DNA of 64,000 nucleotides, from the NCBI GenBank assembly GCA_025617745.1, contig CM046870.1, forward strand, positions 25,277,501 to 25,341,500. Direction: 5' to 3'. A model generated the notes under the pieces. That model worked only from the letters and a program-made list of their open reading frames with translations. It made no database searches and was not told where the DNA came from. The DNA is from Heliocidaris erythrogramma. Taxonomy: Eukaryota; Echinodermata; Echinoidea; Camarodonta; Echinometridae. Shown here piece by piece: positions 29,938 to 55,740 of the stretch. Position numbers and translations under genes: made by a program. Positions within the stretch are counted from its first letter, which is position 1. The number at the start of each line of letters is the position of its first letter.

Positions 29938-29982
<45 letters not shown>

Positions 29983-30191: not shown

Positions 30192-30200
30192 ATAAAAAAT

Positions 30201-30419: not shown

Positions 30420-30591
30420 ATTGACTGGGTGATTTTCTCGACTGGTCCGGAGATCTGGCTATGAGTTCATCGAGGCTAACTTGTAGCCAATTAGCGACGG
30501 ACAGAAAGAGGAATCGCCAGTAAACAGTCAACGTACTACATTTATTAAGAACAAATTAACTTGTGTATATTATCTTAATGTACAATTTAGC

Positions 30592-31767: not shown

Positions 31768-32118
31768 TGTTGAATGAATGAATGATTGATTATTGGATTT
31801 GTTTAACCTGTTGATTGTTGACTGGATGTTCTTTTGTGGTCACTGATTAATCGTATTTGATTGGTTGTATGATTCTTGTTGGTATGAATATTTGATTTTG
31901 ATATATTAATTTTAATGACATATTGACTTAGCTTGTTGATTTATTGATTTGATTGAAAAAAATAAATGGTTACCAGATTAATTATTGATTGATTCATGGA
32001 TTGGTTGATTGAATGATTAGATTGATTAATTGGTTGATTGATTAATTTGTTATTGTTTGAATGATTGGTTGATTGATTAATTGCTTGATTGATTGATTTG
32101 TTATTGATTGATTGATTA
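31768..32118. repeat. Degenerate TGAT microsatellite, cassette 2
   Basis: Same position and composition as 7128-7482. Confidence 0.9.
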
Positions 32119-32233
32119 CAGGGACAACCCGGTTAACGTAGGCAATTAATGGGTTAATAATATATTTCCATTTTATTTATTTATCTAGTGGCCATGTAAT
32201 CATCACAACGATACGATTAAAGACATTTATTTA

Positions 32234-33430: not shown

Positions 33431-33559
33431 GTAAAAGCCGGTGTTACATGCATATATTCACCGGTTCTGATTCTTTTTACAGAACAGCGGTTAAGGGATG
33501 TTGGATGACAACCAAAACCATTGTGAAGGGTAGAACGAGGGTTGTTTATTTGGGGGCAT

Positions 33560-34089
33560 CTCGTTTTTCCGAAGGTTCGTTTTTCCGAAGGTTCGTTTTT
33601 CCGAAGGTTCGTATTTCCGAAACACTAATTTCCCATGCCTGGGGGTTCATAATTCCGAAAATGAAAAAGGGTTCGTAATTCCGAACATTTGTTGCATTAT
33701 TCCGAAGGTTCGTTATTCCGAAGGTTCGTTTATCCGAAGGTTCGTTTATCCGAAGGTTCATAATTCCGAAAATGAAATAGGGTTCATATTTCCGAAGGTT
33801 CGTATTTCCGAAAATGAAAAAGGGTTCATAATTCCGAAGGTTCGTATTCCCGGAAATGAAATGAGGTTCATAATTCCGAAAATGAAATAAGGTTCGTATT
33901 TCCGAAAATGAAAAGGGGTTCGTATTTCCGAAAATGAAATAGGGTTCGTATTTCCGAAAATGAAAAAGGGTTCGTATTTCCGAAAATGAAATAGGGTTCG
34001 TATTTCCGAAAATGAAAAAGGGTTCGTATTTCCGAAAATGAAATAGGGTTCGTATTTCCGAAAAATGAAATAGGGTTCATAATTCCTGG
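33560..34089. repeat. Left 26-bp array of Z element A
   Basis: Repeated units of about 26 bp, TTCGTATTTCCGAAAATGAA followed by AAAGGG or ATAGGG, preceded by shorter GAAGGTTCGT(T/A)TTTCC units. Arranged as the left inverted arm of the element. Confidence 0.95.
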
Positions 34090-34621
34090 TAAAAAAAGGC
34101 GAATTCATCAGGAGCAGAGGTGTACCAACGGGGGGGGGGGGGGGGGGGGGGCACGCCCCCATCCCTCCCTCATCGGATGGCGAAGAAATAAGAAAAAAAA
34201 GAAAGAAAATGGAATAGGAAAGTGAGACGGTTCCGGCAACCCCCCCCCCCCCCCCCTCAACCCTCTTCCACCAGCGGCGTCTTAGATTAGCTTTAAGATT
34301 ATTCCAAAAGACTTGTGCCTCCAATGGTGCCAGTGCTCCCACAATGGCTAGACTCTAGCTACGCCACTGTTAAAGGGAAAATTTAGGGTCACGATAGGAT
34401 ATTATGGTTTTAATTGCCATCTTCAAAAAGCGGATCTCTTTTCGACGAAAAGCACCTCCCCACCCCCGCAATGAATAAAAAAATGAAATAGAGACACAAA
34501 ACTGGGAAGGTTTATAAAAGAGGAGAGGAGAAGAGAAAAGAGACGAAAATAAGAGGACGAGATTAGAAGAATCGAATAAGTGTTTATGTGTGTGTGTGTG
34601 TGTGTGAGGGGGGTGGGCGTG

Positions 34622-34817
34622 TTAAGCAGTATTTCCGAGGACATTTTCGGACAGAGAACAAAAAAAAAACATGAGAACAATGGTCCTCGGAAGCCGGACA
34701 ATAGTCCTCGAACGTCGAACAATGAATTTATGCCTTATTCCGTCGACTGTCCGAGGACGGAGGAACAATAGAGGAACAATACTTGTCCTCGGAAATAAAG
34801 CAATACAAGACTGTGTG
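34622..34817 (+). mobile_element. X element 1, TCCGAGGAC motif
   Basis: About 195 bp. It starts near TTAAGCAGTATTTCCGAGGACA and ends TTGTCCTCGGAAATAAAGC-AATACAAGACTG. The motif TCCGAGGAC/GTCCTCGGA occurs at both ends and at several inner places, with ACAGAGAACAAAA after the first copy and a TTATTCCGTCGACTG block in the middle. It lies against TG microsatellite; the sibling Z element B has only TG repeats here. Confidence 0.7.
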
Positions 34818-34830
34818 CGTGTGTGCGTTT

Positions 34831-35016
34831 GTTTAGCATTATGTCCGAGGACATTTTCGGACAGAGAACAAAAAAAAATCATGACAACAATGGTCCTCGG
34901 AAGCCGGACAATAGTCCTCGAACGTCGAACAATGAATTTATGCCTTATTCCGTCGACTGTCCGAGGACGAGTAACAATAGCGGAACAATAGTTGTCCTCG
35001 GAAGTAAAGCCATGTA
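34831..35016 (+). mobile_element. X element 2, TCCGAGGAC motif
   Basis: Near-identical to X element 1 in the interior. The left end is GTTTAGCATTATGTCCGAGG and the right end CCTCGGAAGTAAAGCCATGTAAAC, directly followed by TG microsatellite. Its right end, read inward (GTTTACATGGCTTTACTTCC), resembles the outer end of the Z elements. Confidence 0.7.
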
Positions 35017-35073
35017 AACGTGTGTGCGTGTGTGTGTGTGTGTGTGTGTTTGTGTGCGTGTGTGCGTGTGTGG

Positions 35074-35150
35074 AGGTGTCATAGTGGAACGGTTTACAGC
35101 GCTTGACTGGAAACGCGAAGGTTGGGGGTTTGATCCCTGGTACGGCACCT
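35074..35150 (+). other. tRNA-like segment with Pol III boxes (Z-A)
   Basis: 77 nt. The ends AGGTGTC and GGCACCT pair over seven positions (one G-T) like an acceptor stem. An A-box-like TAGTGGAACGG and a B-box-like GGTTTGATCCC are spaced as in a tRNA gene. Stem pairing in the D, anticodon and T arms is poor, so this is a tRNA-derived sequence, not a functional tRNA. No SINE tail is obvious. Confidence 0.5.
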
Positions 35151-37150
35151 ATGGCCTTTTTGTTGTAAAAAAAAATGATTATAGCAACTTTCCTTTTTTT
35201 TAATTTACGAGCGCGCGAAGCTAGCGACCAAAAATAATTGTGCCTTTCCGTTGTGAAAAATCATAAAAATAACATATTTCGGCATATAATGACTGAAATA
35301 TGGGGATATTCGGGCACCTCACTCCCTGAATATGAGGTGTGAGTTGCCGGAATATCGGCACTTTCAAAATCCGGGGGAGGGGGGAGTGTCTGCAGCCCGC
35401 CCTTCTCGTACGCCTATGCCTATGCCTATGTTAAGTACACAGTTGCGATTGATTTTAACTTGCGATTGTTTCAAATAAATCGCTTCAACTCCTTATAAGG
35501 CGGGGCACTGGTTGATAAAAGCCATTAATTTAGGTCAGAATGTTTTCTTCTACATGTGTAATTCCTTATTTCTATTTTTTACGATGAGGATTGTTTTACT
35601 CTCAATGTCTTTTAGTGTTTTGTAATTCGTTATGCTTGTAAAAGTTATTTCAAACTTCAGGTCAGCGGTTGTAACTGTTAAAAACGCAGACTGTGCAGTA
35701 AAATGAAGCAACTCATTAGAATCTGTACAAAGCCCTTTAAAACTATCAGCGGTGTGGGGGCGCTAATGGCCCTCCAGTCCTATTTGGATTAAAGGAATGT
35801 GAAAGAAAGATGAGTCTCGTCCGGGTCTGAGATACAAAACTGTATTTGGGCAGCCATGTTCATCGTTAGTCTCATCTCAAAGTTCTTCTTTCTTCATCCT
35901 GTCGCTTTCTTCTTTGTTTTCCTTTCGCTTTTTTCTTATAATCTATTTATTCCCATATGCATATACGAATTTCAGTGTTGAAAAAATCGGAATTAAGTTT
36001 TCTGTTTTCTTTCCTTTTTTTTTTTCTTTTTCTCTCTTTTTTCCCTTCTAACCTCTAATGAATCTTTTCACCTTTTTCTTTTCTCTTCCTCTTCCCTCTC
36101 CCTCCTTTTTGCCCACATAGTGGCGCATATACTGACAGCAATGTTGAATATGAAAGGGGGAGTGACATCCCAACACCCCACCCCTGCCCCCACCCCTTTT
36201 AGCAAGGCCCATGATAGGGGTGGGGTAGGAAAATTTATCCTTGTATTTTGGGAAGCGAGATGGTCGGCTATCCTTATCTGTGGGCGGAAAGGTACTCAAA
36301 ATGTTATAATTGTTTGGATTATCTGGTAACAAAATCATTATTCTATAGACAATATCTCCTTTTTTTTACTTGCTCACTAGCGCGTAAGTTTTAGTAACGG
36401 AATAGTTTGGGACAGGGAACGCCCTTCATTAGGGCGAGTGAAGTGCCCAAATATTCCATATTCGGCAGTAGGGTTAAGTAATATTATTCATGGCTCATTA
36501 TTACATGTTCTATATTTGTCTTTTGATGGCGAAATTGCATTTCCATTACAATAAAAAAAAAGGGTTTTATGTTTTTTCTAACTCGCTTCGCTCGCTTGCA
36601 AATTGTAGAAACGGGGAGTATGATATTCTGCCAAGAGGCATCAGCTCCCCCTTTCAAAAACATTACGTGGCCATGTTCTGCTTGTAAAGATCTACTTGGA
36701 ACTTTGGTGTGTCTCATTTTCCAAAGCAGTATTATAAATAACTTCAAGCCAATTTCGTTGTAGCAAATTTAATCCGGAATCCGATCATTCACTTTCTTCA
36801 ATACATCAGTATGTATTTGTAATCACCGAAGCAATATCATTTTATGAGAAATGAAACATGTAATCCTGAGGCGCTAGCTCTCTACGCTCGCTCACAAATA
36901 TTGCTTATTATAATAGGAACATTGATAATAATGATGATGATAATAATAATAATTATAATAATAATAATAATAATCATAATAATAATAATGATAATATTGA
37001 TAGGAATTACGATGATAATGGCTATTTCTCTGGATTTTATTATAATTGTTATCATCATTGTTATGATTATTGAGTACGAAATTAATATCTTTACACTTGG
37101 CCGTCTTTCCCCTCCTCCCTATCCGAAATACGGATTGACGCCGTATTCTC
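35151..37150. other. Interior of Z element A
   Basis: No gene. Blocks shared with Z-B are 35190-35730, 36240-36800 and 36840-37130. The stretch 35735-36235 is absent from Z-B. It includes CT-rich tracts and an ATA/ATG trinucleotide run (36905-37020). Reading frames are low-complexity (poly-Ile) and not proteins. Confidence 0.6.
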
Positions 37151-37495
37151 TGAATTTACAACCCTTTTTCATTTTCGGAAATACGAACCCTTTTTCATTT
37201 TCGGAAATACGAACCCTATTTCATTTTCGGAAATACGAACCCTTTTTCATTTTCGGAAATACGAACCCTATTTCATTTTCGGAAATACGAACCCTTTTTC
37301 ATTTTCGGAAATACGAACCCTTTTTCATTTTCGGAAATACGAACCTTCGGAATTATGAACCCTATTTCATTTTCGGAAAAACGAACCTTCGGAGTAACGA
37401 ACCTTCGGAGTAACGAACCTTCGGAATAACGAACCTTCGGAATTATGAACCTTCGGAAAAACGAACCTTCGGAAATACGAACCTTCGGAAAAACG
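37151..37495. repeat. Right array of Z element A
   Basis: The same 26-bp unit in opposite orientation (CATTTTCGGAAATACGAACC with TTTTT or TATTT), then shorter CCTTCGGA-AACGAA units before the end. Forms the right inverted arm. Confidence 0.95.
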
Positions 37496-37514
37496 ACATG
37501 TAAACCGTTTATTT

Positions 37515-38449
37515 TGTCCAGTCTCTTTGTCCGTCATGTTCATGGTGAGAAAAGATTGACGTTTCAAAATCAATTACGAAAAATGTCATCCTTACGGAGA
37601 CGAAAATGTCCAAAGAATAAAGTTGGTTAATTTGCGATAAAATCATGTGGAAATGCATCATCACAATTACAACCTATTTCATGATAGGCCAGTTAAAATC
37701 AATTCTTAGTTTATCGTCCTGTCCTCTTTTTCTTTTTTAGACCTGGCTCAATTTGTTTTGGTTACTTGATAATTTTGGTCTGAAATGAAGTGAAATGAAT
37801 ACGAGGACATCTAGACAAAGAGGTAAGTAAACAAAAAGTCATTAATATAAAGCGACCCCCTCCCCATGTTTAGCATCTGAATGGCATGTACAAATTAAAT
37901 AAAGATTTAACATGAAATCGGCTCCTCCCCTTTTTAGCCCGTGTTTTATGCGTGCTTGTGCGGTTGGCAGACCTGTGGGTGATGGTTTTATCGTTTGATA
38001 ATTAAATTTCCTTGTTCGTTTGTGGGTATTTTAGTATATAAGGTCCCCCCTCTTTTAGTTTGTTTTAGAATGCAACCAGGTTTATAGTTTTCTTTGATCA
38101 TAAACCTGATACCCTTAGAGTGATGATCTATTTCTATTTTTGTTCATTTAACACTCATTTGCGGTACGTATAATACCTTTTTACAACACAATAATATGAT
38201 TATGAGCTTTACGCATGAGAGAAGGAAAAGAAAGGAAATTTTCGTTTGCTTGCTTTGTCATTATTGGATGTGTTGTCACGATCGCCATTTAAACAAATAG
38301 TTAATCATTCTATATTCATCATCAGTAGCTTTATACAGGTAGTTGATTGTCTGTGGGTTTTCCCCACATAGACACAGCCAGTGGAACTGAAAATGTATGC
38401 ATGTTGAATGAGGGTCAGCGTCTCGGTGACAGTGAATGCTTCATAGGCC
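37515..38449. other. Distal flank of cassette 2
   Basis: Continues the sequence of 12287-13289 without a gene. A short deletion relative to cassette 1 lies near 37911. Confidence 0.65.
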
Positions 38450-38580
38450 GGGGGAGCGTTTCATCAAGTGTTTTGTCAGGGATTTTTACCGACAACTGTT
38501 ATAAGCTACTGAAATCTTTGCATCTGATTGGCTGAGAGCAAATTTGTCGGTAAAAATCACTGACAAAACACTTGATGAAA
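38450..38580. mobile_element. Palindromic MITE, cassette 2 only
   Basis: 131 bp whose arms share TTTCATCAAGTGTTTTGTCA and GATTTTTACCGACAA in inverted form. The left end begins GGGGGAGCG. Cassette 1 reads straight through (AGGCCCGGCTAAATATG at about 13284), so the insertion postdates duplication. Confidence 0.75.
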
Positions 38581-38593
38581 GCTAAATATGTTA

Positions 38594-38716
38594 CAGTCAC
38601 ACCAACAAGACCGACGCCAGACCGATAACAGACCGAACCAAATAGTACATTGCCACCAGTGGCAAAGAATCAGTCGGTTTTGGAATCGGTGTGTGGTCGG
38701 TTTGGCAGTGTGACTG
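38594..38716. mobile_element. Palindromic MITE, CAGTCACAC ends (cassette 2)
   Basis: Orthologous to 13304-13426. Confidence 0.6.
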
Positions 38717-39108
38717 TGGTATAACGCGAGGTAATAATAATATTCAGCAAATTTTGTATCCTCAGGCAGTATGCTTTAAACCCCAAGATTTATTATTATT
38801 ATCACGCAATAATAATTGGTGACACGACATGCTCCGGCGACAATAGTTCCTGGCTTTAATTACTATTTAATGCAATTTAATTTTTGAAGTTAGTTATGTT
38901 TGTTTGTTTAAGGTGTTTGCTAATTTTGCTTGTTTTTTTCTCTCATTCTAGATATGATATCGCATATGTGACCTTGCCTGAATGTATTTTTTTACACAAA
39001 GCATAATGTATTTGATTATCATTGGGTATTTCCACCGTCTGATTAAAAGCACAATCTGCAACGAAAAGATAAGGCTTAGAGAGATTAACCATAAACCGTG
39101 GATAGCAC

Positions 39109-39464
39109 CAGGGGCGGATCCAGGATTTTGAGAAGGGTCATCATCGTTTTGGGGTGCTCTTACTCCAAAATTCTCCGACAAGCAAAAAAGAAAGAAAGAA
39201 GGTCATCAGGAAAGAAGATCATCAGAGACTTGGCGTGCGTTTTTACCCTAAATTCTCTGACAAGCAAAGAAAGAAAGAAAGAAAGAAGGTCATTCGCCTT
39301 TTGGGGTGTTTTTTTTTCTTCAAAATTCTCTGACAAGCAACCACAAAAAAAAAAAGAGTCATCACCGTTTTGCGTTTTGGGGTTTATTTCTACTCCCAAA
39401 TTCTCCTCTCTTTTTTCCTGTTGTTGGGGGGGGGGGGGGGGACCGCCCCCTGATTCTGCCCCTG
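39109..39464. mobile_element. MITE with CAGGGGCGGATCC end (cassette 2)
   Basis: Orthologous to 13829-14181, with the same internal GACAAGCAA repeats and a poly-G run. Confidence 0.5.
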
Positions 39465-39775
39465 GATCTCATATTGAAACAAGTGTGCATGTTATCTCAC
39501 TGCGCTGCTACATTTGGTAGCAAAACATTTCTTATCTTCGTTTTCCTACTTTATTCCTTTATAGTTTTTCTTTAATTTTGTTCTTGTGTTCTTGTGTTAT
39601 TCTCCCACTTTCCTTGTTTTCCTTTTTTGTCAACATCTATCAACTGGAGTATAGCTTAGTCATCTATTATAAAGCTCAAGTACTTCTACCACAAGATGTG
39701 TCTTTTTTTTCAACAAGTAATCAAATCGGAGTCAGTGGTACAGAGATGAAAAAAGGCGATTGTGATACTTATCTA

Positions 39776-40815
39776 CAGTGAGTCCCAGAAAAAAGTTAAC
39801 AGTCGGAAAAAGTCTCCCCCCCCCAAAAAAAAAAAAAAAAAAAAAAAAAAATGTTTTAACAATTTTTAATGAAGTTTTCATACGTATGGATAGCTTAGCG
39901 TCTCTTCCATCAAATGGCACCGAAATATCTCACAGTATTTTACGCTTGAGTGAGCAAAGGCAAATTTTGTGAAAGGGTGCAAACTACAGACCTGACAGGA
40001 ATTGATACTGGCTTTGGCTGGTATCAGCCAAGCCGCGAGTAATGACAAAACGTAGGAATTCCCATATTCTGATCAATAAAACACAATTTATAAATCACAT
40101 GCTTTGGTGTATGTATATCCTTACACATCTCATCAACATCTTATGCTTGAGTGAGCAATTAACTACTTTGTTGAGTGTTTCAAACTGTTACTTTAAGTGA
40201 GTGTTTTAATTTCACCTGGCTTGCTCATTCAACAGTAAAGTTTTGATTGGATATATCAGGACATACAGTGAACAAAGTCAGTTCTGTCATAAATTGTATT
40301 TTAAAAATTACAATATAAAATTTCTGAGCCTTATCATGACTCACAACTTTACTAATACCAACCAGAAATTACATAAACAAACATTTGTCAGGTAAGGATT
40401 TTGCACCATTTCAGAAAAATAGCTTTTGTTCACTAAAGCGTAAAATATTGTGAGATATTTTGGTGCATTTGATAGAAGAGACCATAAGCTATCCACTAGG
40501 ATTTAAAAAATAATCGGGAAAGTATTTTGAAATATTGAATTAGGGAGACTTTTTTTCAACTGTCAATTTCAAACGGTTCTCAACTTTGTTGATGCCAACC
40601 AGAACAAATACCAATTCTTGTCAAGTCTGAATTTTGCACCGTTTTACAAAAGTGGATTTTGACCACTCAAGCGTAATAACTAGTCAGATTTGTAGGTGTT
40701 ATTGCATATGAGGGACTCTTAGCTATCTACGAGAAACAACATTTTTTGAAAATATTCTGAAATATTTATTTTGGGAGACTTTTTCCTACTGTTAACTTTT
40801 TTGGGGGACGCACTG
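39776..40815. mobile_element. Mariner-like non-autonomous element
   Basis: 1,040 bp flanked by TA (39774-39775, 40816-40817). Ends CAGTGAGTCCCAGAAAAAAG and, read inward from the right, CAGTGCGTCCCCCAAAAAAG. Terminal inverted repeats of about 43 bp continue with GTTAACAGT-GGAAAAAGTCTCCC. TA duplication and CAGTGCGTCCC-type ends fit Tc1/mariner. The interior has several inverted TTACGCTTGAGTGAGCAA-type copies but no transposase. Confidence 0.7.
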
Positions 40816-40817
40816 TA

Positions 40818-41520
40818 TAATGATGATGAAGATGAATTATTGAAGATGAAAAGAGATGACATGACAATCAGGGGCGTCGATCCTTTTATTCCGGGGGGGG
40901 GGGGGGGGGGGGGGGGTGGGTAAGACAGCATAATGTAATGAAGTTCATGTGTGTGTGTGTGTGTGTGTGTGTAATTGGGTTTTTACAGACGTGTATCAAT
41001 CAGATATGATTATTTACGTCTGGGACCGACCTTTAACGTCACCATCCGAAAGACGTGACTCAGTCTCGAACCTGGGTCCGCTGAATCAGTTTATAACTTC
41101 CACTGGTAGCTGGATTACATTCTAGTTCATTCTATAGTTCATACTAGTTCATTACGCACATGACTTTTTTTAAACGCCTCTTAATTACCAGCTTCTCCAC
41201 GGTTATATTTAATATGTAATGCGCGCTGTGTAATACATTTTGTATTTCATTGTTCATGTTGTTTGGAAGGTTCCATTTCCCCGAGTTTTGCATATATTTA
41301 ATCAACGTTGTAAAGAGGGATCTCACCCAAAATTGTATTCCGACTTTAAGCCGGTAGAGTCCAATTACACCAATCGATGGGCGTAATGAAATCAACAGCA
41401 AAGGATGACGAAATACCTCGACCATGTCGACATAGGAGGTAAATTCCCAGGTCCAATTTGAGCGGATGGCGAAATAATCTAGCAGGCCCTTACTGACAAA
41501 TGATAATTATGCAGAATTTT
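40818..41520. other. Inter-cassette stretch before promoter 3
   Basis: No gene. Contains a poly-G run (about 40893-40916), GT repeat (40951-40972), unique sequence, and from about 41385 the region upstream of the promoter (AATCAACAGCAAAGGATGA), shared with the other cassettes. Confidence 0.5.
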
Positions 41521-41630
41521 TGATTGGTCGAAGATAAAAAGATGAAATCTCTGATTGGAGCGGTGAAGTTGGATTTTCCCAGGAATGGGCGTGGCACCTC
41601 ACCATCACCTCGAGTTGTCTAATATAATAC
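41521..41630 (+). promoter_or_regulatory. Promoter of gene copy 3
   Basis: ATTGG at 41523-41527 and 41553-41557 (30 bp apart), GGGCGTGGC at 41587-41595, and a weaker TATA-like TATAATA at 41623-41629. More diverged than promoters 1 and 2. Confidence 0.7.
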
Positions 41631-41654
41631 ACCTTTGCAGCTTTTTCTTACATT

Positions 41655-41778
41655 CTACACAGTCCTTTGAAGAACTCAAGTCTTGGAGCCTGTCTTGGAG
41701 CACTTTCTATTTCACACTGAATTAAAGAAGTCTTGATAGATTTTATATGGCATCATCTGAAACAAGTTGTTTGCACAG
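41655..41778 (+). other. Leader exon 1 of gene copy 3
   Basis: Ends CACAG|GTAAGT at 41778/41779. The upstream-ORF ATG at 41747-41749 reads MASSETSCLH as in copy 1. Confidence 0.6.
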
Positions 41779-42370
41779 GTAAGTGGATATCCATGAGCTT
41801 ATACTGTAATGCATGTACATGTATAAACAGTTAACATTAGAAAGAGACCGTTAGAATACTAAAAAAAGACTGAACATGTGCAATGAAAGATCCGTAATGC
41901 TTACCTCTTTTATGTGGGTGGTTTATGTCATTTCATATATTCATATTTATATAATATACCTTTGCTAGCAAATATAAAACATGCATCTATTCATTTCAAA
42001 CCCAATCTACAGGTCATTTTACTCTTAATTATATAGTCAAAAAGTAATATAATTAGTCATCATGACCAATACGTTTGTAACACGAATCATTGATGTAGCT
42101 GTTACAAAACTATAGGAATGACAATGCATCTTCTCTTTACATATTTCATCACTTTTGAATTAGTATTGTGTACATACGTTGTTTTGGGGTTTTTTCGCGA
42201 CTCAGGCAGAGAAATTTTCAATGTTAGAAAAAAACATAGTTTGCAATTTGTCACGACGTTACAATTTATTAATACATCATGATGCAATATGCCTCTTATC
42301 TCATACAAGATATTTTTTTTCAAATAAAACATGTTTGAGATGTAACTTTCACCTGATTCTTCTGGTTTAG

Positions 42371-42415
42371 AGGCACAAGAAAAGTAACATCTTTGTCAAA
42401 TCTGTACGCAAAACT
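42371..42415 (+). pseudogene. Candidate exon 2 of copy 3, interrupted
   Basis: Starts after TTCTGGTTTAG and matches 3248-3287, but is cut at 42415/42416 by Z element B. After the element (46900) the sequence has no clear donor. If this exon is real, copy 3 has lost normal splicing. Confidence 0.5.
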
Positions 42416-43175
42416 GGGGGCATCTCGTTTTTCCGAAGGTTCGTTTTTCCGAAGGTTCGTATTTCCGAAGGTTCGTATTTCCGAAACACTAATTTCCCAT
42501 GCCTGGGGGTTCATAATTCCGAAAATGAAAAAGGGTTCGTATTTCCGAAAATAAAATAAGGTTCGTATTTCCGAAAATGAAATAAGGTTCGTATTTCCGA
42601 AAATGAAACAAGGTTCGTATTTCCGAAAATGAAATAGGGTTCGTATTTCCGAAAAATGAAATAGGGTTCATAATTCCTGGTGAAAAAAGGCGAATTCATC
42701 AGGAGCAGAGGTGTAGAAACGGGGGGGGGGGGGGGGGGGGGGGGAGGGCACGCCCCACCCCTCCCTCATCGGATGGAGAAAAAATAAGAAAAAAAGAAAG
42801 AAAATGGAATAGGAAAGAAGACGGTTGGACCCCTTCCGGCAACCCCCCAACCCTCTTCCACCAGCGGCGTCTTAGATTAGCTTTAAGATTATTCCAAAAG
42901 ACTTGTGCCTCCAATGGTGCCAGTGCTCCCACAATGGCTAGACTCTAGCTACGCCACTGTTAAAGGGAAAATTTAGGGTAACGATAGGATATTATGGTTT
43001 TAATTGCCATCTTCAAAAAGCGGATCTCTTTTCGACGAAAAGCACCTCCCCCACCCCCGCAATGAATAAAAAAATGAAATGGAGACACAAAACTGGGAAG
43101 GTTTATAAAAGAGGAGAGGAGAAGAGAAAAGAGACGAAAATAAGAGGACGAGATTAGAAAAATCGAATAAGTGTT

Positions 43176-43220
<45 letters not shown>

Positions 43221-43240
43221 GTGTGGGTGTGCGTGTGTGG

Positions 43241-43317
43241 AGGTGTCGTAGTCGAACGGTTTACAGCGCTTGACTGGAAACGCGAAGGTTGGGGGTTTGA
43301 TCCCTGTTACGGCACCT
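43241..43317 (+). other. tRNA-like segment with Pol III boxes (Z-B)
   Basis: Same 77 nt as 35074-35150 with three differences. Its A box TAGTCGAACGG fits the TRGYNNANNNG consensus. Confidence 0.5.
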
Positions 43318-45206
43318 ATGGCCTTTTTGTTGTAAAAAATATAGCAACTTTCCTTTTTTTTTAATTTACGAGCGCGCGAAGCTAGCGACCAAAAATAATT
43401 GTGCCTTTCCGTTGTGAAAAATCATAAAAATAACGTATTTCGGCATATAATGACTGGAATATGAGGATATTCGGGCACCTCACTCCCTGAATATGAGGTG
43501 TGAGTTGCCGGAATATCTGCACTTTCAAAATCCGGGGGAGGGGGGTTGGGGGGTTGGCTGCAGCAGCCCCCCTTCTCGTACGCCTATGCCTAGGCCTATG
43601 TTAAGTACACAGTTGCGATTGATTTTAACTTGCGATTGTTTCAAATAAATCGCTTCAACTCCTTATAAGGCGGGGCACTGGTTGATAAAAGCCATTAATT
43701 TAGGTCAGAATGTTTTCTTCTCCATGTGTAATTCCTTATTTCTATTTTTACGATGAGGATTGTTTTACTCTCAATGTCTTTTAGTGTTTTGTAATTCGTT
43801 ATGCTTGTAAAAGTTATTTCAAACTTCAGGTCAGCGGTTGTAACTGTTAAAAACGCAGACTGTGCAGTAAAATGAAGCAACTTATTAGAATCTGTACAAA
43901 TTTATTATGCTGTAAGCAGCTGTATAAAATGAAAGATTTTCATCCATGTTTAGAAATGATGGTATTTTGGCAAAGTTAAAGAACATGTTCAATGATTTTA
44001 ATCTATTTATGCGGCATAGATAGTTAGGATTATTCCCTGTATGATAATTATTTTAGCCCGACTGAAAGAAAACTTAACATTTTGATCCACTATTCTTCAA
44101 ATTTGGTTGTATGTTGCTTTTAATCATTATCATTATATTCAATTAGCGATTGCACCTGACCTATATACTTACACATAATATGCCAGTATAAAGAGTTATT
44201 TTTATTCTTCAGATGCGGTGTGCTACATAGCAGTGGCTTTAACATTTTTGTTATTGCTCACTTGTTATCTTTCTTTTCTTGAATTTGGTTTTCTTAAGAA
44301 GTAGCTGCTGCACGGCTTTTGTAAAGTTCTGTTGGAATTGTAAAGTGTTTGAAAACTATCTGCGTCATAGATCATTTCAGATATGCGGCAAACAAAATGC
44401 TGTATAGTTGTGTAAGCAAGGTCATTACTTACAGCATACTATGCTGCATTTCATTCATTTACCTCTACAATTTAAGATTTTAATCTGTTTTAAGAAATGT
44501 TAATACTTTTGCAAGGTTATAAAACATGCTCAATGATTTCAGTCTGCCCTGCTGCATAAATTGTTTGAGATATTTTGCATTATAGTTTGGTTTTACTTTT
44601 GTTTCCTTTTATGATAATCATATCAGCCTGATGATAAGACTCCTTCTTTAACTTGTTACGATCCATCTTTCTTCGGCTTTGGTTGTTTATGGTATCTATT
44701 CATTTATTTATTATTATTACTAGTATTATTTGTATTAGTATTATTGTTATTATAATTATCAATATTATCATTATTATTAGTAGTAGTATTATCTGTTTTA
44801 TCATTTTTATTATTATTATTACTAATATTATCAGTATTATAATTTTTATTATTGATAATATTATTGTTGTTGTTATTATTGTTATTATTATTATTACAAT
44901 TGTTATTATGAAGTGGACTACCCAGAATTACGATGACGATGTCATTTTGGATGGAGTTATGCGACCAGACTTAGATATTGCACCGGTTACTCTACTATTG
45001 CTTCTTTTATTTCCCTTGTCATGATCGTATAATTGGCCTATAGCCTATACGTATCAATAATATGCTTGTTATAATATGTTGTGCTACTTGCCAGGCTATT
45101 TATTAAACATAGCAGTGACTCCTTTATGAACTCTCTGTAATATTATGTTGTTTTTATTGCTGTTGTTGTTTTGGGGACCGGAGGGGAGGGCTTGTAGAGT
45201 CATCTA

Positions 45207-45358
45207 CAGAGCCATATTACAGACTTCGGCCAACTCGGTTTATTTGGGCACAACATGGCGTATATTCCTTTGTTTAGTGCTTGCCTAACAAAGCAACAAG
45301 CGCCATATTGCTACCTACATGGAGCCGAGTTGGCCAAACTCTGTAATAGATGGCTCTG
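45207..45358. mobile_element. Foldback MITE in Z element B
   Basis: 152 bp. Starts CAGAGCCATATTACAGAC and ends GTAATAGATGGCTCTG. The arms also share GGCCAACTCGG and ATGGCG/CGCCAT in inverted form around a short loop. Non-coding. Confidence 0.7.
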
Positions 45359-48300
45359 AGGGCTAGGGATGCAGGACGCCCCCACCTTATTTTTAGTATA
45401 CACTTTTCATAGTATTTTTTAAATCACAATTTATGTTGAATGTTGACGAAGTAATTACATCTTACATGTCTTAAAGATAATAAAGTGTCAATGTTTGGCT
45501 CGCTGGAATCCAGCAGCGTGGTGCCCGAACATCCTTTTATTTTGGGAAGCGAGATGGTCGGCTATCCTTATCTGTGGGCGGGAAGGTACTCAAAATGTTA
45601 TCGTTGTTTGGATTATCTGGTAACAAAATCATTATTCTATAGACAATATCTCCTTTTTTTACTTGCTCACTAGCGCGTAAGATTTAGAAACGGAATAGTT
45701 TGGGACAGGGAACGCCCTTCATTAGGGCGAGTGAAGTGCCCAATATTCCATATTCGGCAGCAGTTAAGTAATAATGGTTCATTATTACATGTTCTATATT
45801 TGTCTTTTGATGGCGAAATTGCATTTCCATTACAATAAAAAAAAAGGGATTTATGTTTTTTTCTAACTCGCTTCGCTCGCTTGCAAATTGTAGAAACGGG
45901 GAATATGATATTCTGCCAAGAGGCATCAGCTCCCCCTTTCAAAAACATTACGTGGCCATTTTCTGCTTGTAAAGATCTACTTGGAACTTTGGTGTGTCTC
46001 ATTTTCCAAAGCGGTATATACATTATATAAATAACTTCAAGCCAATTTCGTTGTAGCAAATTTAATCCGGAATCCGATCATTCACTTTCTTCAATACATC
46101 AGTATGTATTTTAATCACCAAAGTAATATCATTTTATGAGAAATGAAACATGTATTCCTGAGGCGCTCGCTCTCTACGCTCGCTCACAAATATTGGTTAT
46201 TATAATAGGAACAATGATAATAATGATAATAATATTAATAATAATAACAATAATGATGATAATAATAATAATAATAATTATAATAATAATAATAATCATA
46301 ATAATAATAATGATAATATTGATAGGAATTACGATAATATAATGGCTATTTCTCTGGATTTTATTATAATTGTTATCATCATTGTTATGATTATTGAGTA
46401 CGAAATGAATATCTTTACACTTGGCCGTCTTTCCCCTCCTCCCTATCCGAAATACGGATTGACGCCATATTTTCTGAATTTATAACCTTTTTTCATTTTC
46501 GGAAATACGAACCCTTTTTCATTTTCGGAAATACGAACTCTTTTTCATTTTCGGAAATACGAACCCTATTTCATTTTCGGAAATACGAACCCTTTTTCAT
46601 TTTCGGAAATACGAACCCTTTTTCATTTTCGGAAATACGAACTCTATTTCATTTTCGGAAATACGAACCCTTTTTCATTTTCGGAAATACGAACCCTTTT
46701 TCATTTTCGGAAATACGAACCTTCGGAATTATGAACCCTATTTCATTTTCGGAAAAAAGAACCTTCGGAAAAACGAACCTTCGGAAAAACGAACCTTCGG
46801 AGTAACGAACCTTCGGAATAACGAACCTTCGGAATTATGAACCTTCGGAAAAACGAACCTTCGGAAATACGAACCTTCGGAAAAAAACGACATGTAACCG
46901 CAAAACTTACTATAAGAAAAAAAACTTTCTATACTGTATCACTTAAAAAAACCGAATACGATCCAGTGTCCAATGTCCTGATAAGTTACCATGTAAATCA
47001 GTCCTGTACTGTGTCTTCATTTTTCACTTTTTTGAGATACCAAGCTAATTCCGAATCATCACGAGTAAAATACTAAAATATGCCAAAGTAATTACTTAAT
47101 ATCCTCCATTTTTTTCTACTGAGAAATATCGATCAAATTGCTTTCAAATATAAAATACAGACTAATATTATACAATGTTCCAAGGTTTGTTTATTTTTCC
47201 ACTAACAAACGAACGTGTATATACAAATAAAATAAAATCAAATAAAATTACATTAAGAAGTGTTTACATACAAGGAAAAATGACGGGAAAGAAGATATAA
47301 TTAAACATAATAAACATTTGTACTATCATATTTTCGATAAAACTAGGCATAGCAAAGAAACATAAGTGAATGAGTCTATTGAAAATCTCTGCTTGTATTT
47401 TATGGACCCCTTTGTCAAATAAGTACATAAAAATTCTTTAAATGTATACATATTTAATTAAATAAAATATTAAAGAAATTAATGTAGGTATACACATACT
47501 TTACATTACCCCCCCCCCCCCCCCTACCTTACACTACAAAATAGAAAAGTTGTGACAATGGTATGTGTACGATTTTTGTTTTTGTAACAACAACAAGCAA
47601 TGTCTTGAGCAGGGGGAAAGAGAGAAATAAAGAAAAATAGAGATAGAAGACAAATGATAAGGAAGTTACACATTTTCAAGACTTTTGCTTTGATTTCTAT
47701 TTTCTTTCTAACTCGATTTTTGCTTCGAATGGATATTTTTCCTAACTTTTTTGCCATTTAACAGTTATATCTATTCAGCAGGATTTTCTTTTTTTAGTTT
47801 ACGTTAAAATGAAAAAAAAAATAGTGGGAGCTGATTTTAGTGGTGTCATTACGGCAAGATGAACATGGCAAAAATACACTGCAAGAGCACAGTACTGATA
47901 ATTCATTCTCTAGGTTTTAAACCAGTATTTGACACCATACCATACAAAAACATATCTAACCCAGTTATCTATTTAACAGAAACCCGCATAATAGCTTTTC
48001 ATTTTATAGAATTGCGTATTCGAACATGTTAAGCAGTGCCTTTGATTTTAGCACTTGTTTTTAAATGAATGTTGTTTGATTGGTTTGATTAAATATTGAT
48101 ATGTGGACTAATGTTAATGCATTGGCATATCACCAGGAATATTTGATGGAATAATGATACCGACTAGTGATAGCTATTTCAGTTTTCCTACTTAAATTTT
48201 AATCGAGTTGCAGGTAATGATGTCTATTAATTGTATTTATTTTCATTTCGTTTTGGCTGTGGCGTCTTAAATGTAAAATAATCATCATCAAGATTCAAAA

Positions 48301-49248
48301 GGCGTATGCATAACTAATTTCCTCATTTTTCGATTGCAAGCCTGCTTCTTTCTGCTTCGTGTTGACATTACAACAATGCAACAAGGCCAAATAAAATTGA
48401 TTCCTAGTTTTTGGTCTCCGGGCTCCCTTACTTTTTGTCGACTTTCGTCCTTTTTTATCATGTTTATGCTATATCGGGAGGAGATACCTGAGGGGTTTAG
48501 CGATTCAGTTCGCTTTTCCCCTCCCAGGCACAGATGATGCTAAATAATAATAATAATGATAATTTTATATTTTTGTTTCAATTCATAAAATGGATAATAA
48601 TATGAGTAAATCTAGGCAATGGGATAACAAAAAAACATGAGTATGATGCAACTTTTACCTTGTTTTAAGCCTGTGCGGTGCATGTTTCAATGAAAAGAGA
48701 TTAAGAAAGTTCGGGCTTAAATCGACCCAGTAGAATATGTATTTACAGAATTAAAATATCAGATATGAAATAAGATGGTCCCCCTCCTCCTCATTGTCGA
48801 ATAATCGAGAAACTAGGAATCAAAATTTACTTGGCCTAATCCTAACCTTAAATCTTATCTGAAACCTTGCTGAAATCGAAAACCAAATGGCGAAATAAAG
48901 CCCGTAACAAATGGCGGATCTCCATATTCCCCTTACTAACGGTTACAAATTGGCCTGTCAAGTTTCCGACCAACTTGTCTTTGCACATCATTACATATAG
49001 TTTTGATTCTTGAAATTGTTCATTGGAAAACATTTGAAAACTTATCCTTGACTATTTTTATCCTGATTTTATCTCTTCAAAATATCTAAATTAATTTTTA
49101 TCTCGCATTTTAAATCTTCTGGGACTGAGATTCATAAAATAAAGAAACTCTACAAAATAAAATTCCTCCGTTAAACACAAAGATTTCTGTGTTTAACGGA
49201 GTATTGTTTTACATGATACACACACACACACACACACACACACACCCA

Positions 49249-49441
49249 GCTCTACATGGCTTTACTTCCGAGGACAGGTATTGTTCCTCTATTGTTCCTC
49301 GTCCTCGGACAGTCGACGGAATAAAGCACAAATTCATTGTTCGACGTTCGAGGACTATTGTCCGGCTTCCGAGGACCATTGTTGTCATGATTTTTTTTTG
49401 TTCTCTGTCCGAAAATGTCCTCGGACATACTGCTAAACAGA
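49249..49441 (-). mobile_element. X element 3, TCCGAGGAC motif
   Basis: Opposite orientation to X elements 1 and 2. From a CA repeat: GCTCTACATGGCTTTACTTCC, then the motif-rich interior, ending TGTCCTCGGACATACTGCTAAAC against a TA repeat. Confidence 0.7.
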
Positions 49442-49442
49442 C

Positions 49443-49477
<35 letters not shown>

Positions 49478-49670
49478 GAGGAAATAATATATACAACAGC
49501 TTTGGCAACTCTCGTGGAAATATATATAATGCGAAAGGAAATGAGAGAATAATGGTTGCGGAACTTAAATCAAAGTTCCCCAGAACTGTCCTCCCTTTTT
49601 GAAATTTTTTTCAAAGGCTGAAAAAATGTCTCCGCCGGGAATCGAATAATATAGCATAATTTCATACAGA

Positions 49671-49779
49671 GGAGGCGGAGCGTCGAGCTCGGACAATGGA
49701 AGTGGAGGGGCACCTTTTGTCCGCCAAACAAAAGGTGCACCCCCACCTTCATTGTCGAGCCCGACGTTCCACCGCCTCC
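49671..49779. mobile_element. Palindromic MITE, GGAGGCGG ends
   Basis: 109 bp, arms GGAGGCGGAGCGTCGAGC and GCCCGACGTTCCACCGCCTCC nearly pair along their length (also GGACAATGGAAGTGG, GGGGCACCTTTTGT). Absent from copies 1 and 2 just upstream of the coding exon, so a recent insertion. Confidence 0.75.
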
Positions 49780-49972
49780 GATTTAATATCCCTCTCTCCA
49801 TATGAAACTTGTTCTACCCTTTTCACAACACTTCAAATAATAGCAGACTGGAGGCAATTGTAGGCGTGAAAGGGTTAAAAGTGTTTGCGAACCAATCCCT
49901 TATTTCGAAATCCTTGATTCGCAAATTGTCGAAATAATCGTTTACTTCTCCCTTCTTTTGACAGATAAAAAT

Positions 49973-50203
49973 ATGTCGTCCAGATCCAATCAACCCCCTT
50001 CCCAGGTGAGCGCTGGAGCAAACCGTATGGGCTACACCCCATCTGGCGTCCAGTCCGGTACCGCAGCGGCTGGTCACATGTCCCTCAAGTGCGAGGAGTC
50101 ATGGAGGCGGAGTTCCCTCGGGAAGTCCAGTATCTCAGATGCAGTCCGCAGGAAGCAAGGGCAGCTACTACACTGGCGGTGGTGGTGGCAAGAAGTAGAT
50201 TGA
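49973..50203 (+). pseudogene. Gene copy 3: frameshifted copy of the Gly/Ser-rich protein
   Basis: The exon starts at 49965. The first 38 codons match copies 1 and 2 with a two-codon insertion (Arg-Ser) and substitutions such as VGYGPGG to MGYTPSG. An extra C after ATGTC at about 50084 shifts the frame, so the Gly-rich, Lys-ended C-terminus is replaced by an unrelated Trp/Arg-rich tail ending WWWQEVD (76 residues). That tail frame is also open in copies 1 and 2. With candidate exon 2 interrupted, copy 3 is most likely a pseudogene. Confidence 0.65.
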
Positions 50204-50372
50204 CTGGGTGTTTTTCTTGACCGGTCCGGAGATCTGGCTATGAGTCGATCGAGGCCCAACTTGTAGCCAATTAGCGACGGACAGAATGAGGAAACGCAAG
50301 CAAAGAGTCAACGTATTATTAAGAACTTATCAACTTGTCTATATTATCTTAATCTGTTAATGTAACATATTT

Positions 50373-50717
50373 CGCCGGGGGGGGGGGGGGGTGGGGGGGG
50401 GGGGGGCGTCGCTAGACCATTTTGTGTAGGGATGTCGGTGGTCCGTGCAAATTTGCCAACAAGTTATCTGAAAGTTTCCAAAAGGCAAAAAGAAAACAAA
50501 AGATTTTCAATTTTGCAGACAAAGGAAAACAAAGGTTTGTCGGTTCCTAAAATTTGCCAACAGATTGTTCACTTTTTTTCCCTAGGCAGGCAGAAAAAAA
50601 GATTTACTGATTTACCGACACGGTGACCCTACAAAATATATCTATTTTGCTAACAGAAAATTAGCGGTGGGGGAGGGGAGTACACACCAACACCCCCTTT
50701 TAGCGAAGACCCTCCAG
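50373..50717. mobile_element. hAT-like non-autonomous element, cassette 3
   Basis: Orthologous to 5907-6232. The left end is degraded by G expansion (GGCGTCGCTAGACC retained). The right end is TTAGCGAAGACCCTCCAG. Confidence 0.5.
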
Positions 50718-51258
50718 TTCATCCCATTGCGAGGTGAGAATACGATGTTTAAAATCTTGAACATATTTTAGGCGGCTAATTCCCGTAAATTTCCAACAAT
50801 ATTTTCTCATGATATGTACTGTTATTTTTTGTATCAATGTAAGCTTATCTCTCCCTTTGATTACTGCATTTGATCTATCTAAAATAAGAAAAAAAATATA
50901 CGGTTAATCTCCCATGCAGTTATCCGATGTGGATAATGATAATGATAATGATAATGATGGTGGCGATGATGGTGGTGATGATCTAAATACTTCCATGTAC
51001 ACGGTCATGGCGCCTGTATGGGGCGATATCCACCACTGCTGAAAGCAGAATTCACTTGCTATATAATTTTAATCATAAGGAAATTATAAAAAAAGGATAC
51101 TGCAGGACGCATAAAAAAAGAGAAACAAATGTAAAAATATACCATAATTTTATTCCAAAATTATGTTTTTATCTTAATAAAACTATGTCTAAATATTCCC
51201 TTTTTAGTCGGAATATATTATCAATTAAATTGATTATTTTGATGATTGTAGTCAAAAT

Positions 51259-51477
51259 CAGGAGCGGATCCAGGATTTTGTAAAAAAGGGGGGCACACAA
51301 AATTTCTGACCAGAAAAAAAAGGTTATTACACGTTTTGGGATCTCTTTGTCGTTCAAAATTCTCTGACAAGCAAAAAAAAAAAAAAAAAAAAACTTCAAA
51401 AGGGGGTACAATGTACTCTTTTCTTTCAAAAAAGGGGACACGGGCCAGAATCGCCCCCCCCCCTAAATTCGCCACTG
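51259..51477. mobile_element. hAT-like MITE, 219 bp
   Basis: Starts CAGGAGCGGATCCAGG and ends AAATTCGCCACTG. Flanks GTCAAAAT (51251-51258) and GTAAAAAT (51478-51485) match at 7 of 8. Cassettes 1 and 2 keep only its left part (CAGGGGCGAATCCAGG near 6770 and 31409), so the right half was deleted before or during their duplication. Confidence 0.65.
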
Positions 51478-52230
51478 GTAAAAATAATTAGCCTTGTTTA
51501 TTGATGTACATTAATCTGAAAGTAGGTCGAATAAAACTTGTTTTTCCTAGTATTGCAATTAACATTATAGTACTAGAAATTATGATAGTTTACATGGTAT
51601 TTTTAGTCGTGTGAAATACTATTAAAAAAGCCTCGAACAAAAGCAATTATGTGTTCCTTTGATTTTTCTTTAGAATTAATTTGTCTTATGCATTCCGTGG
51701 ATATCTTACACAATCAGATGGTTTATCAAAAGGGAAAGCAATTCTTTTTCAATGGCAAATACTATGAACTCTCTGTGAAAATACTGTGAAAGGATTATAA
51801 ATATTTCTGTTTGCATATGACTGTGTTGTTGAATGAATGAATGATTGATTATTGGATTTGTTTAACCTGTTGATTGTTGATTTTTGGGGTCACTGATTAA
51901 TCGTATTTGATTGGTTGTATGATTCTTGTTGGTATGAATAACGTTTGATTTTGATGTATTCATTTTATTGACATATTGACTTATCTTGTTGATTTATTGA
52001 TTTGATTGAAAAAAATAAATGGTTACCAGATTAATTCTTGATTGATTCATGGATTGGTTGATTGCATGATTGCTTGATTGATTAACTGGTTGATTGATTA
52101 ATTTGTTATGGATTGAATGATTGGTTGATTGATTGATTGACAACCCAGTTAACGTAGTAGTTCCATTTTATTTTCAAATGTATTTATCTAGCGGCCATGT
52201 TATCATCACAACGATACGATTAAAGATATC

Positions 52231-53070
52231 TATTGATAATTCACGTCTATATTAAGAGGTTAAATTTGTATCTTATCCTATTATACAACTGGCTTGATTA
52301 TTATTGTAGGCAATATGATCACTACTTTATCAAAACGTATAATATTTTTTTTGTCTGCCTCTCTCTCTATCAATTTACCCAAAATCGTTTACTTTTCACT
52401 TCTCGATCTCTCCTTCTCTGTCCTTCCCTGTCCCTCCTTCCCTTTATTTCTCCTTTCCAATTCCTTTTGGCAACCTGTATATTTCGCTTATCTTGTAGAA
52501 ATAACATTATTGATTTTAATGGAACCCATATCTAACATGTATTATGCGCACAATGATTTGCTAATTTGATTTAGAATGCGCAGACTAGTACAGAGGCAAC
52601 GCATAAGGGACTGACAGATAAAACTATGCATGTCGACATACAGAATGCACCAGAAAAGATTGCCGTTTCAAAATCAGTTACGAAATATCATCTTTACGGA
52701 TACGAAAATGTCAACAAAAATTAGATTAGTTAATGCGCAATAAAAGCTTGAGGAAATTCATGATAACAGTTACAACCTATTTCATTTTAGGCCATTTAAA
52801 ATCAATTTCTAGGTCCTCGTTCTCCCTTTTTATTTTTTATTTTTTGGCCCCCTCAATTTCTTTGTTACGGACATATTCTAGTAAATGAGGTAACATAAAT
52901 ATAATGCGATTTCACTTATTTTGAAGTGCATGTACAAATGGAATAAAGCTGAAACTCTTCGTGTTGAAATTGACCCAATGGCATTATTATTTACATGAAA
53001 AATACTGAATATCCAATAACATGAAATCGGCTCCTCCTCTATTTCGCCCGTGTGTGTGTGTGCGTGCGAT
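52231..53070. other. Unique stretch and distal flank, cassette 3
   Basis: About 52231-52600 is not found elsewhere in the window. From 52650 it matches the distal flank (AAAGATTGCCGTTTCAAAATC, as at 12327). No gene is seen. Confidence 0.5.
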
Positions 53071-53224
53071 CTTACATAGATTCAGTTGTGGGGTACAGAG
53101 CACAATGATGGCCTTTATTCCGTCATGCTTGTGGGGTACAAAATACAATTGTAGTACAAAATACAATAGAAGTACTTGTGGGGTACAATACAATATAAGA
53201 AAACAATACAGTTCCCCAACCATC
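53071..53224 (+). mobile_element. Y element 1, TTGTGGGGTAC motif
   Basis: Starts CTTACATAGATTCAGTTGTGGGGTAC, followed by AGAGCACAATGATGGCC, TTTATTCCGTCATGC, then further GTGGGGTAC copies with AAAATACAAT between, ending near AGTTCCCCAACC. It is inverted relative to Y element 2. A TG repeat lies just left. Confidence 0.65.
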
Positions 53225-53423
53225 AAATTAAAAAAAAAAGAAAAGAAAGGTGTATACATTATAGTTTTCATTCATTCCACCCTGCCTTCAGTGAATTGAA
53301 ATAAACTGCCTGGAATACAGAATACTGCCCTAATCAATTGGATTTGGAAAGCAGTGACGGCACTGAACGGACTCACCCACTCACAGACATACACACAAAC
53401 ACACACACACACGCACATTCACA

Positions 53424-53582
53424 TACATGGACTTGTGGGGAACTCTATTCATTTCTCCTATTGTATTTTGTACCCCGCAAGTACTTCTCCTATTGTATTT
53501 TGTACCCCACAAGCATGACGGAATAAAGGTCATCATTGTGCTCTTTTGTTCTCTGTACCCCACAAGACTATCTATGTAAAAC
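53424..53582 (-). mobile_element. Y element 2, TTGTGGGGTAC motif
   Basis: Read on the - strand: TTTTACATAGATAGTC, then CTTGTGGGGTAC, AGAGAACAAAAGAGC, CAATGATGACC, TTTATTCCGTCATGC and three more motif copies, ending GTTCCCCACAAG. It sits in a CA repeat. ACAGAGAACAAAA and TTATTCCGTC are shared with X elements. Confidence 0.7.
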
Positions 53583-53879
53583 CACACCCACCCCACCCAC
53601 ACACACACACCCCCACTTTTGATATCTGGTTATCACCAGACTATCATTGGGTTTTCCCACCATATCTTCAAACACAAAACCGTTGCAAAACTACAACAGT
53701 AAGAATAGTCACAAGCTGAGTGAATTGAAATAAATTCCATGTATGTCAAATACAAAATACTGCCTTAATCAATTGGATTTGGAAGGTCTCTTTTTGTATT
53801 ACGTATAGATACAGCAGTGACGGCATTGAACGGACTCACCCACTCACAGACATACACACAAACACACACACAACCGCAC

Positions 53880-53911
<32 letters not shown>

Positions 53912-54965
53912 TCACACACCCACGCACCCCCTCTCACATACACATACACACACACTCTTTAGATATCTGGTTATCACCAGACTATCATCGGGTTTTCCCA
54001 CCATCTCTTCAAATACATAACCGTTGCAAAAACAACAGTGAGAATAGTCACAAGCTGCACTGCCGTCTCTCTCATGGTCTATTCCAATATTCCCACATAT
54101 ACATTAAAAAAGGCAAATTGTTTATCCTTTTGTCTTGACCTTTTCTCGTTTAATAATTTAATTTCTTTGTTTGTGTTTTTAGTGTATCTAATGGTACGAA
54201 GCTTATGAATCAATTTCTATTTCTGCTCATTAAACACTGATTTGCGGTACGTATAACACCTTTTACAAAATAATAATAACAGTATGATTAAGAACTTTAC
54301 GCATAAGAGCAGCAAAGGAAAGGGACTTTTCGTTTGCTTACTTTGTCATTATTGGATGTGCTGTCACGATCGCATATAAATTCTATATTTTTCATCGACA
54401 TCTTTATAGTGGATTGTCTGTGGGTTTTCCCCCACATAGATACATGCAGTGGAACTGAAAATGTATATGTTAAATGAGGGTCAGACTCTCAGTGAATGCT
54501 TTATAGGCTCGGCTCCCCAACAATCAATTTTTTTAAAAAGGTGTGTACATTATGGTTTTCATTCATTCCACCCTGCCTTGAGTGAATTGAAATGAATTCC
54601 CTGTATGTCAAATACAGAATACTGCCCTAATCAATAGACCTGTTTACTAAGTGATTCAAATTGATGGATGTTTCTTTCCTGGGGACCTAGTAACGAGGTA
54701 TTCCATTAACCTGTTATTAATGAATGAACTACAATACTTGGAATCCAGTTTGCATACATTATTTGTTGCTATGTCTGGCAAGCCTCTGGCAAGCTTTCAG
54801 GTTGTCAAGAACAACCTTTGTTTCAAAAGTATGCATAAAATTTGAATCACTTAGTAAACAGGTTTATTGGATTTGGAAGGTCACTTTTTTGTATCACGTA
54901 TGGACACGGCAGTGACGGCACTGAACGGACTCACCCACTCACAGACATACACACGCATACACACA

Positions 54966-55165
54966 CAGTCTTGTATTGCTTTATTTCCGAGGACAAGTAT
55001 TGTTCCTCTATTGTTCCTCCGTCCTCGGACAGTCGACGGAATAAGGCACAAATTCATTGTTCGACGTTCGAGGACTATTGTCTGGCTTCCGAGGACCATT
55101 GTTCTCATGATTTCTTTTTTTTTTGTTCTCTGTCCGAAAATGTTCTCGGACATACGGCTAAACAC
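54966..55165 (-). mobile_element. X element 4, TCCGAGGAC motif
   Basis: Nearly identical to X element 1 in reverse orientation, including the end CAGTCTTGTATTGCTTTA. It sits in the CA repeat of the third local duplicate. Confidence 0.7.
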
Positions 55166-55740
55166 GCCCACACACCCACACACGCGCACACACGCGCACA
55201 CTCTCTTTTGAAATCTGTTTTCCCACCATCTCTTTAAATACAAAACCGTTGCAAAAACAACAGTAACAATAGTCACAAGCTGCACTGCCGTCTATCTCAT
55301 GGTCTATTCCAATATTCCCACATATACATTAAAAAAAGACAAATAGTTTATCCTTTTGTCTTGACTTTTTAATTTAATTTCCTTGTTTGTGTTTTTATTG
55401 TATATAATGTTATGAAGCTCATGAATCAATTTCTATTTTCTGCTCATTAAATACTGATTTGCGGTACGTATAACACCTTTTACATAATAATAATAACAGT
55501 ATGATTAAGAACTTTACGCATAAGAGAAGGAAAGGAAAGGGACTTTTCGTTTGCTTGCTTTGTCATTATTGGATGTGCTGTCACGATCGCATTTAAATTC
55601 TATATTTTTCATCGACATCTTTATAGTGGATTGTCTGTGGGTTTTCCCCGACATAGATACATGCAGTGAAACTGAAAATGTATGCATGTTAAATGAGGGT
55701 CAGGCTCTCAGTGAATGCTTTATAGGCTCGGCTAAAGCGG

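Follow-up and report, generated by a model that had tools for sequence, protein, structure and literature searches.

A shared scaffold with family-specific motif sets in short microsatellite-associated elements of Heliocidaris erythrogramma

The window analysed here, a stretch of 64,000 nucleotides from Heliocidaris erythrogramma (GCA_025617745.1, CM046870.1, positions 25,277,501 to 25,341,500), contains short inverted-repeat elements of two families, X and Y, which are built on one scaffold and carry different repeated motifs. We propose, with a probability of roughly 0.65, that X and Y, together with families V, T, U, Q and N from elsewhere in the genome, belong to a single group of short, non-autonomous DNA transposons, similar to miniature inverted-repeat transposable elements (MITEs) and residing mainly in microsatellites, whose motif sets were switched under the drive of a transposase. 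The initial annotation had suggested that all motif positions of an element were rewritten while the scaffold stayed; pattern counts, 100 labelled elements and a comparison of U with N support this genome-wide.

Shared scaffold and family-specific motifs

The likeness of the X and Y scaffolds is real and persists in larger alignments, both in whole-genome matches and with the motifs masked. In a motif-masked, order-preserving alignment, controlled by 3000 dinucleotide shuffles and 3000 stretches of the window, the scores of X1–X4 against Y2 were reached by 0, 3, 0 and 1 of the shuffles and in each case by 0 of the window stretches; scores against the damaged Y1 were weaker (22, 259, 0 and 20 of 3000 shuffles). 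A search of the 1.06-Gb assembly for TTTATTCCGTC followed within 12–30 bases by ACAATAG, with the motif left free, returned 1080 + 1293 matches, some places counting twice through overlapping readings, versus 0 + 1 for the reversed control. Among the roughly 100 matches listed, all but one were of X or Y type by eye, some with an altered letter. When X and Y were barred by the fourth base after the block, 486 + 467 matches remained versus 0 + 0 in the control; this set overlaps the first, and some places are again counted twice. Exact core patterns of X, Y and Z (the latter being a further element type of the window) gave no matches in viral contigs, nor did those of X and Z in the genome contigs database. 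A looser pattern did give 27 scaffold-like matches in viral contigs, which we attribute to chance: none had an S block or X motif nearby, and one had GTGGGG.

The initial annotation had also pointed to similar outer ends in X, Y and Z. Taken alone, end likeness is mostly at chance level for Y–Z (752–826 and 1604–1672 of 5000 by chance for Y ends against Z right ends) and for X–Y (chance counts of 1440, 325 and 36 of 2000).

Reading of the sampled loci (numbered with an L below) revealed further families, namely V (AACCGATGAC), U (GGCGAA core), Q (GGGGAA core) and T (CTTGTGTGGCT). R is no more than a lead from one or two loci, and P and O, each likewise from one or two loci, are probably further families but are also treated as leads. 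In the sample used for labelling (the window, L029 and L031–L114), 101 block matches were assigned by the letters following the block: 43 X, 22 Y, 15 V, 9 Q, 7 U, 4 T and 1 R. The labels were not blind: similarity to X brought in L029–L033, and scaffold patterns brought in the loci after them. Among the 43 X, the one in L109 is cut right after the block and was labelled by default, with X-like letters preceding it; L030 lies within L034 and was excluded from the tallies, L071 held no element, and L090 nearly duplicates L091, which means that the elements are not all independent.

Within elements the motif agrees closely. Across the six larger families, 100 elements in all, there are 159 (X), 47 (V), 34 (Y), 7 (T), 21 (U) and 24 (Q) exact copies of the family's own motif, and X, V, T, U and Q contain no exact foreign motif; the lone foreign match, a 7-base GGGGGAA, lies in one of the 22 Y elements. 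Motif types thus do not mix freely. The separation includes the similar cores of U and Q: the seven U elements have 21 GGCGAA and no GGGGAA-type sites, and the nine Q elements 24 GGGGAA-type and no GGCGAA sites. Motif positions and strands are largely fixed within each family, with three to five copies that include both ends.

The clearest switch is seen between U and N. The 16-base spacer TAGAAATTCGACGTTA, followed by one free base, precedes GGCGAA 188 times in the genome and GGGGAA 131 times, the latter defining family N; the related Q spacer precedes GGCGAA once, in the mixed element L128. Twelve of the 131 N elements were fetched and contain 40 GGGGAA sites but no GGCGAA; the search pattern demands one per element, which leaves 28 that are independent of it. 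Three pairs of four-site U and N elements are 0.77, 0.78 and 0.72 identical over 156 aligned columns, and between the U of L101 and the N of L123 each of the four cores is different. In the U of L054 the first site is altered to AGCGAA. A U-end pattern matched 88 + 97 times in the genome. The N element in L120 has GAA repeats on its left and CTT-type repeats on its right, i.e. inverted flanks, unlike the others.

A tree was built from the motif-masked scaffolds of 93 of the 100 elements, leaving out seven X cut by locus ends. With motif type mapped onto it, X, V, T and Q each form a clade and Q is placed inside U; Y holds T or V. Sister relationships of Y with T and of X with V were considered and are unsupported by this tree.

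Layout and insertion sites

All four X elements and both Y elements were found where the initial annotation had placed them (Table 1). Taken from the ACAGAG side, X elements read motif (+), ACAGAGAACAAAA, motif (−), motif (−), TTATTCCGTC, motif (+), motif (−); Y2 reads motif (+), ACAGAGAACAAAA, TTTATTCCGTC, motif (+), motif (+), motif (−). The X bodies of the window differ at 4–7 of 159–160 sites. Inverted ends exceed chance in X1, X2, X4 and Y2 (1, 1, 3 and 1 of 2000) and more weakly in X3 (24 of 2000); those of X2 form an imperfect repeat of about 26 bp, and those of the U copies in L101 and L102 are identical over 21 bp. Like MITEs, the elements have terminal inverted repeats (X1, X2, X4, Y2 and the U ends), and they are about 130–200 bp long, lack coding capacity and occur in high copy number.

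Table 1. Elements of the window and an empty counterpart site; the outer limits of elements are approximate, and X sites are of TCCGAGGAC type.
Feature	Position	Strand	Motif sites	TTATTCCGTC block	Remarks
X1	34617..34812	+	34634+, 34683-, 34704-, 34750+, 34785-	34735..34744 (+)	five sites
X2	34828..35019	+	34844+, 34893-, 34914-, 34960+, 34994-	34945+	
X3	49249..49441	-	49417, 49368, 49347, 49301, 49267	49315-	between (AC)n and (AT)n
X4	54969..55166	-	55142 (variant), 55088, 55067, 55021, 54986	55035-	in (CA)n
Y1	53071..53210	+	53086+, 53129+, 53176+	53115+	right end lost
Y2	53420..53583	-	53555, 53502, 53470 (variant)	53517-	both ends kept
Y2 fourth site	53433		53433 (variant)		orientation opposite to other Y2 sites
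Empty counterpart	53837..53955	+			(CA)n in third copy of repeat unit, without X4 or Y2

All six window elements have a perfect (GT)4 or longer tract within 20 bp on at least one side, a setting that accounts for 1.3% of the window, the tracts of the six elements included. In 75 of 84 X, Y, T and V elements, one or both flanks have a tract that reads GT on the strand of the element; one element has CA, and eight have none or are cut. The five elements that are uncut and lack both kinds of tract by this rule have partly GT-like flanks and no duplication by eye. The target microsatellite varies by family (GT, TA or TAA/ATT), and empty counterparts are microsatellites free of the element. As in the SaTar type of element, microsatellite flanks are combined with different families lying side by side (L067, L069, L074, L080, L081 and L094). 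Old segmental duplication blocks of about 70–97% identity, at 1282–17564, 28710–39621 and 46907–52239 of the window, supply empty sites (query 32001–56000).

Several other features were observed. Element W (63010–63355) is a multi-motif element without the scaffold block; it has 13 copies of AAGGGTGCAA with at most one mismatch, in both orientations, beside (CA)n(TA)n. The Z elements at 33552–37506 (+) and 42416–46899 (+) are foldback-like with 8-bp duplications, and their 26-bp unit looks like the 16-bp unit lengthened by 10 bp, roughly a turn of the helix. A large imperfect palindrome with inverted copies of about 69% identity spans 39774–40817. A longer element in GT repeats, running from L035 (9690–10000) into L036, has several sites of AACCGATGAC type; we saw no TTTATTCCGTC block in it, and it is possibly another relative of V. 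The window is eukaryotic, with a guanine-plus-cytosine content of 36% and open reading frames (ORFs) for reverse transcriptases of the long interspersed nuclear element (LINE) type: a Pfam search of 10 of the 41 ORFs gave LINE-type domains, with one match under its cut-off and three ORFs without a match, and Rfam gave no match in the window at its gathering threshold.

Mechanism and alternatives

The motif copies are subterminal repeats and putative sites at which a transposase acting in trans would bind through its DNA-binding domain; in Hermes (PMC10368747), as in Galileo (PMC3688188), subterminal repeats are sites of the transposase. If the specificity of this transposase shifted, only copies with every site changed would be mobilised efficiently, which would yield families with whole motif sets switched. 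The scaffold, comprising ACAATNGG-TTTATTCCGTC-ACAATAG and its spacing, would be kept by descent and may also be needed by another protein or by the catalytic part of the transposase. Some inner sites may have been added by local tandem duplication, and substitution would proceed site by site, driven by one specificity.

The initial annotation had left the choice between such co-evolution with a transposase, which we infer to fit better, and a copying process that spreads a terminal motif inward. By gene conversion or template switching, such a process would change the set as a block. Copying would account for the agreement of motifs within elements, and the terminal sites of U, Q and N do change along with their flanks. 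Inner sites, however, retain letters and flanks of their own that copying would have erased: the third site of X is TTCGAGGAC in 40 of 43 copies, the commonest third and last sites of Y (TTGCGGGGTAC and TTGTGGGGAAC) are unlike its first, and in U, Q and N the inner core has changed while the CGTTA in front of it has stayed. Inward copying is thus disfavoured and in our view improbable, and site-by-site substitution under one specificity is the better reading. A coordinated change at all sites is likewise predicted if the motifs are sites for a host factor, e.g. a silencing zinc-finger protein, and are altered by the families in an arms race; since the motifs lie near both ends in an inverted arrangement, like transposase sites, we regard this as very improbable. 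That unrelated elements came to look alike by chance or convergence deserves hardly any credence: end likeness alone is mostly at the level such an origin predicts, but the masked alignment and the scaffold counts against reversed controls (2373 to 1 and 953 to 0) refute chance for the families with the scaffold block, a statement that does not extend to Z.

The elements might instead be rolling-circle elements (Helentron- or HINE-like) that insert in GT strands, with the motifs acting as hairpins or Rep sites. Single-strand insertion would explain both the orientation, at 75 GT to 1 CA, and the want of a clean target duplication in the window copies; tandem neighbours such as X–X in L058 and L077 would also fit, and helentrons are described as having subterminal inverted repeats and no target duplications (PMC4067079). 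The inverted ends, such as those of U over 21 bp, speak against this origin, as do the single-strand folds, which are weak for X2 (z −1.93, equalled by 9 of 200 shuffles) and no better than shuffles for Y2 (z 0.08, equalled by 108 of 200). We consider it unlikely. Base pairing as the reason for the matching motifs is equally unsupported by the X2 and Y2 folds.

Several observations weigh against a transposase-driven switch in one group of DNA transposons. The near-total GT orientation is unexpected for symmetric cut-and-paste insertion, and none of the six window copies has a clean target duplication, because the sites are simple repeats; by eye, X3 has a candidate duplication matching 7 of 8. 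The autonomous relative with matching ends that the initial annotation had proposed to look for was not found: neither it nor a transposase with these ends was met in searches for the X left end and the U end. One exact pattern for an X left end with another interior gave one match, a deletion derivative, and the U end pattern gave seven, all judged from the listing to be the element's own right end. No transposase was seen by eye in the ORF lists of L033 (an X right end with another interior) and L115, for which no profile search was made. Family relations other than U–Q are unstable in the trees, and the deeper order shifts with masking. In the four window X bodies, 1 of 45 motif columns and 9 of 114 scaffold columns are variable, so the motif is not clearly better conserved. 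No recognisable site is left in 5, 0, 9 and 8 of the 22 Y elements at their four positions (4, 3, 1 and 1 of 15 for V), and one mixed element was met, L128, with one GGCGAA and three GGGGAA. Separately, at about 240–300 of L115 there is an X copy without the stretch between the first and fourth motif, as if direct repeats had recombined.

Since intermediates are lost, a joint change in the specificity of a transposase and its many sites is hard to observe. In this genome several families share a scaffold, among them the U–N pair, in which the other sites read so far conform; the order in which a whole set switches, the pace of the switch and its mechanism thus become testable by sequence and binding assay. 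The near-exclusive single orientation relative to GT repeats further constrains the insertion mechanism. Tentatively, the elements could represent a new animal transposon group, in which a scaffold chassis carries an exchangeable motif recognition code, each transposase switch rewrites all three to five sites, the target microsatellite differs in some families, and insertion is strand-oriented, asymmetric and perhaps non-canonical.

Comparison with known systems

Among the matches listed in open-access titles and abstract openings, no description of this combination of features in an animal was found; the letters of the scaffold block do occur in three papers. Coral CMITEs of Acropora (PMC2872659) are also short, with an internal region better conserved between families than the terminal repeats, and form tandem arrays; they have TTAA target duplications and a link to piggyBac, and the parts consulted report neither a repeated internal motif set nor oriented microsatellite insertion. 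Hermes, of the hAT type (PMC10368747), likewise has several short transposase-binding end repeats, two of them as a quasi-palindrome, whereas no hAT-type terminus was recognised in the X/Y group. Foldback/Galileo elements have long inverted ends, and Galileo has three widely spaced binding sites (PMC3688188); for the X/Y group no transposase was found with the end patterns tried. The TU elements of sea urchins also count among the closest systems. HINE/DINE-1 elements (PMC4067079) share the subterminal inverted motifs and, in some copies, microsatellites, and have no target duplication, of which the window copies show no clean case; they are described with a 3-prime palindrome and T flanks, while the inverted ends of the X/Y group reach close to the termini.

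Elements targeted to microsatellites are described in plants, i.e. SaTars (PMC5907723), pineapple mt-MITEs (PMC8449440) and rice Micron. SaTars and mt-MITEs resemble the X/Y group as small inverted-end elements with dinucleotide microsatellite flanks and several families per tract, but are Mutator-related, have target duplications of 9–10 bp outside microsatellites, and lie mostly in (TA)n, a palindromic target at which the plant precedents cannot reveal the orientation of insertion. The X/Y group differs from them in occupying GT, TA or TAA/ATT according to family, and in sharing one scaffold with switched motifs.

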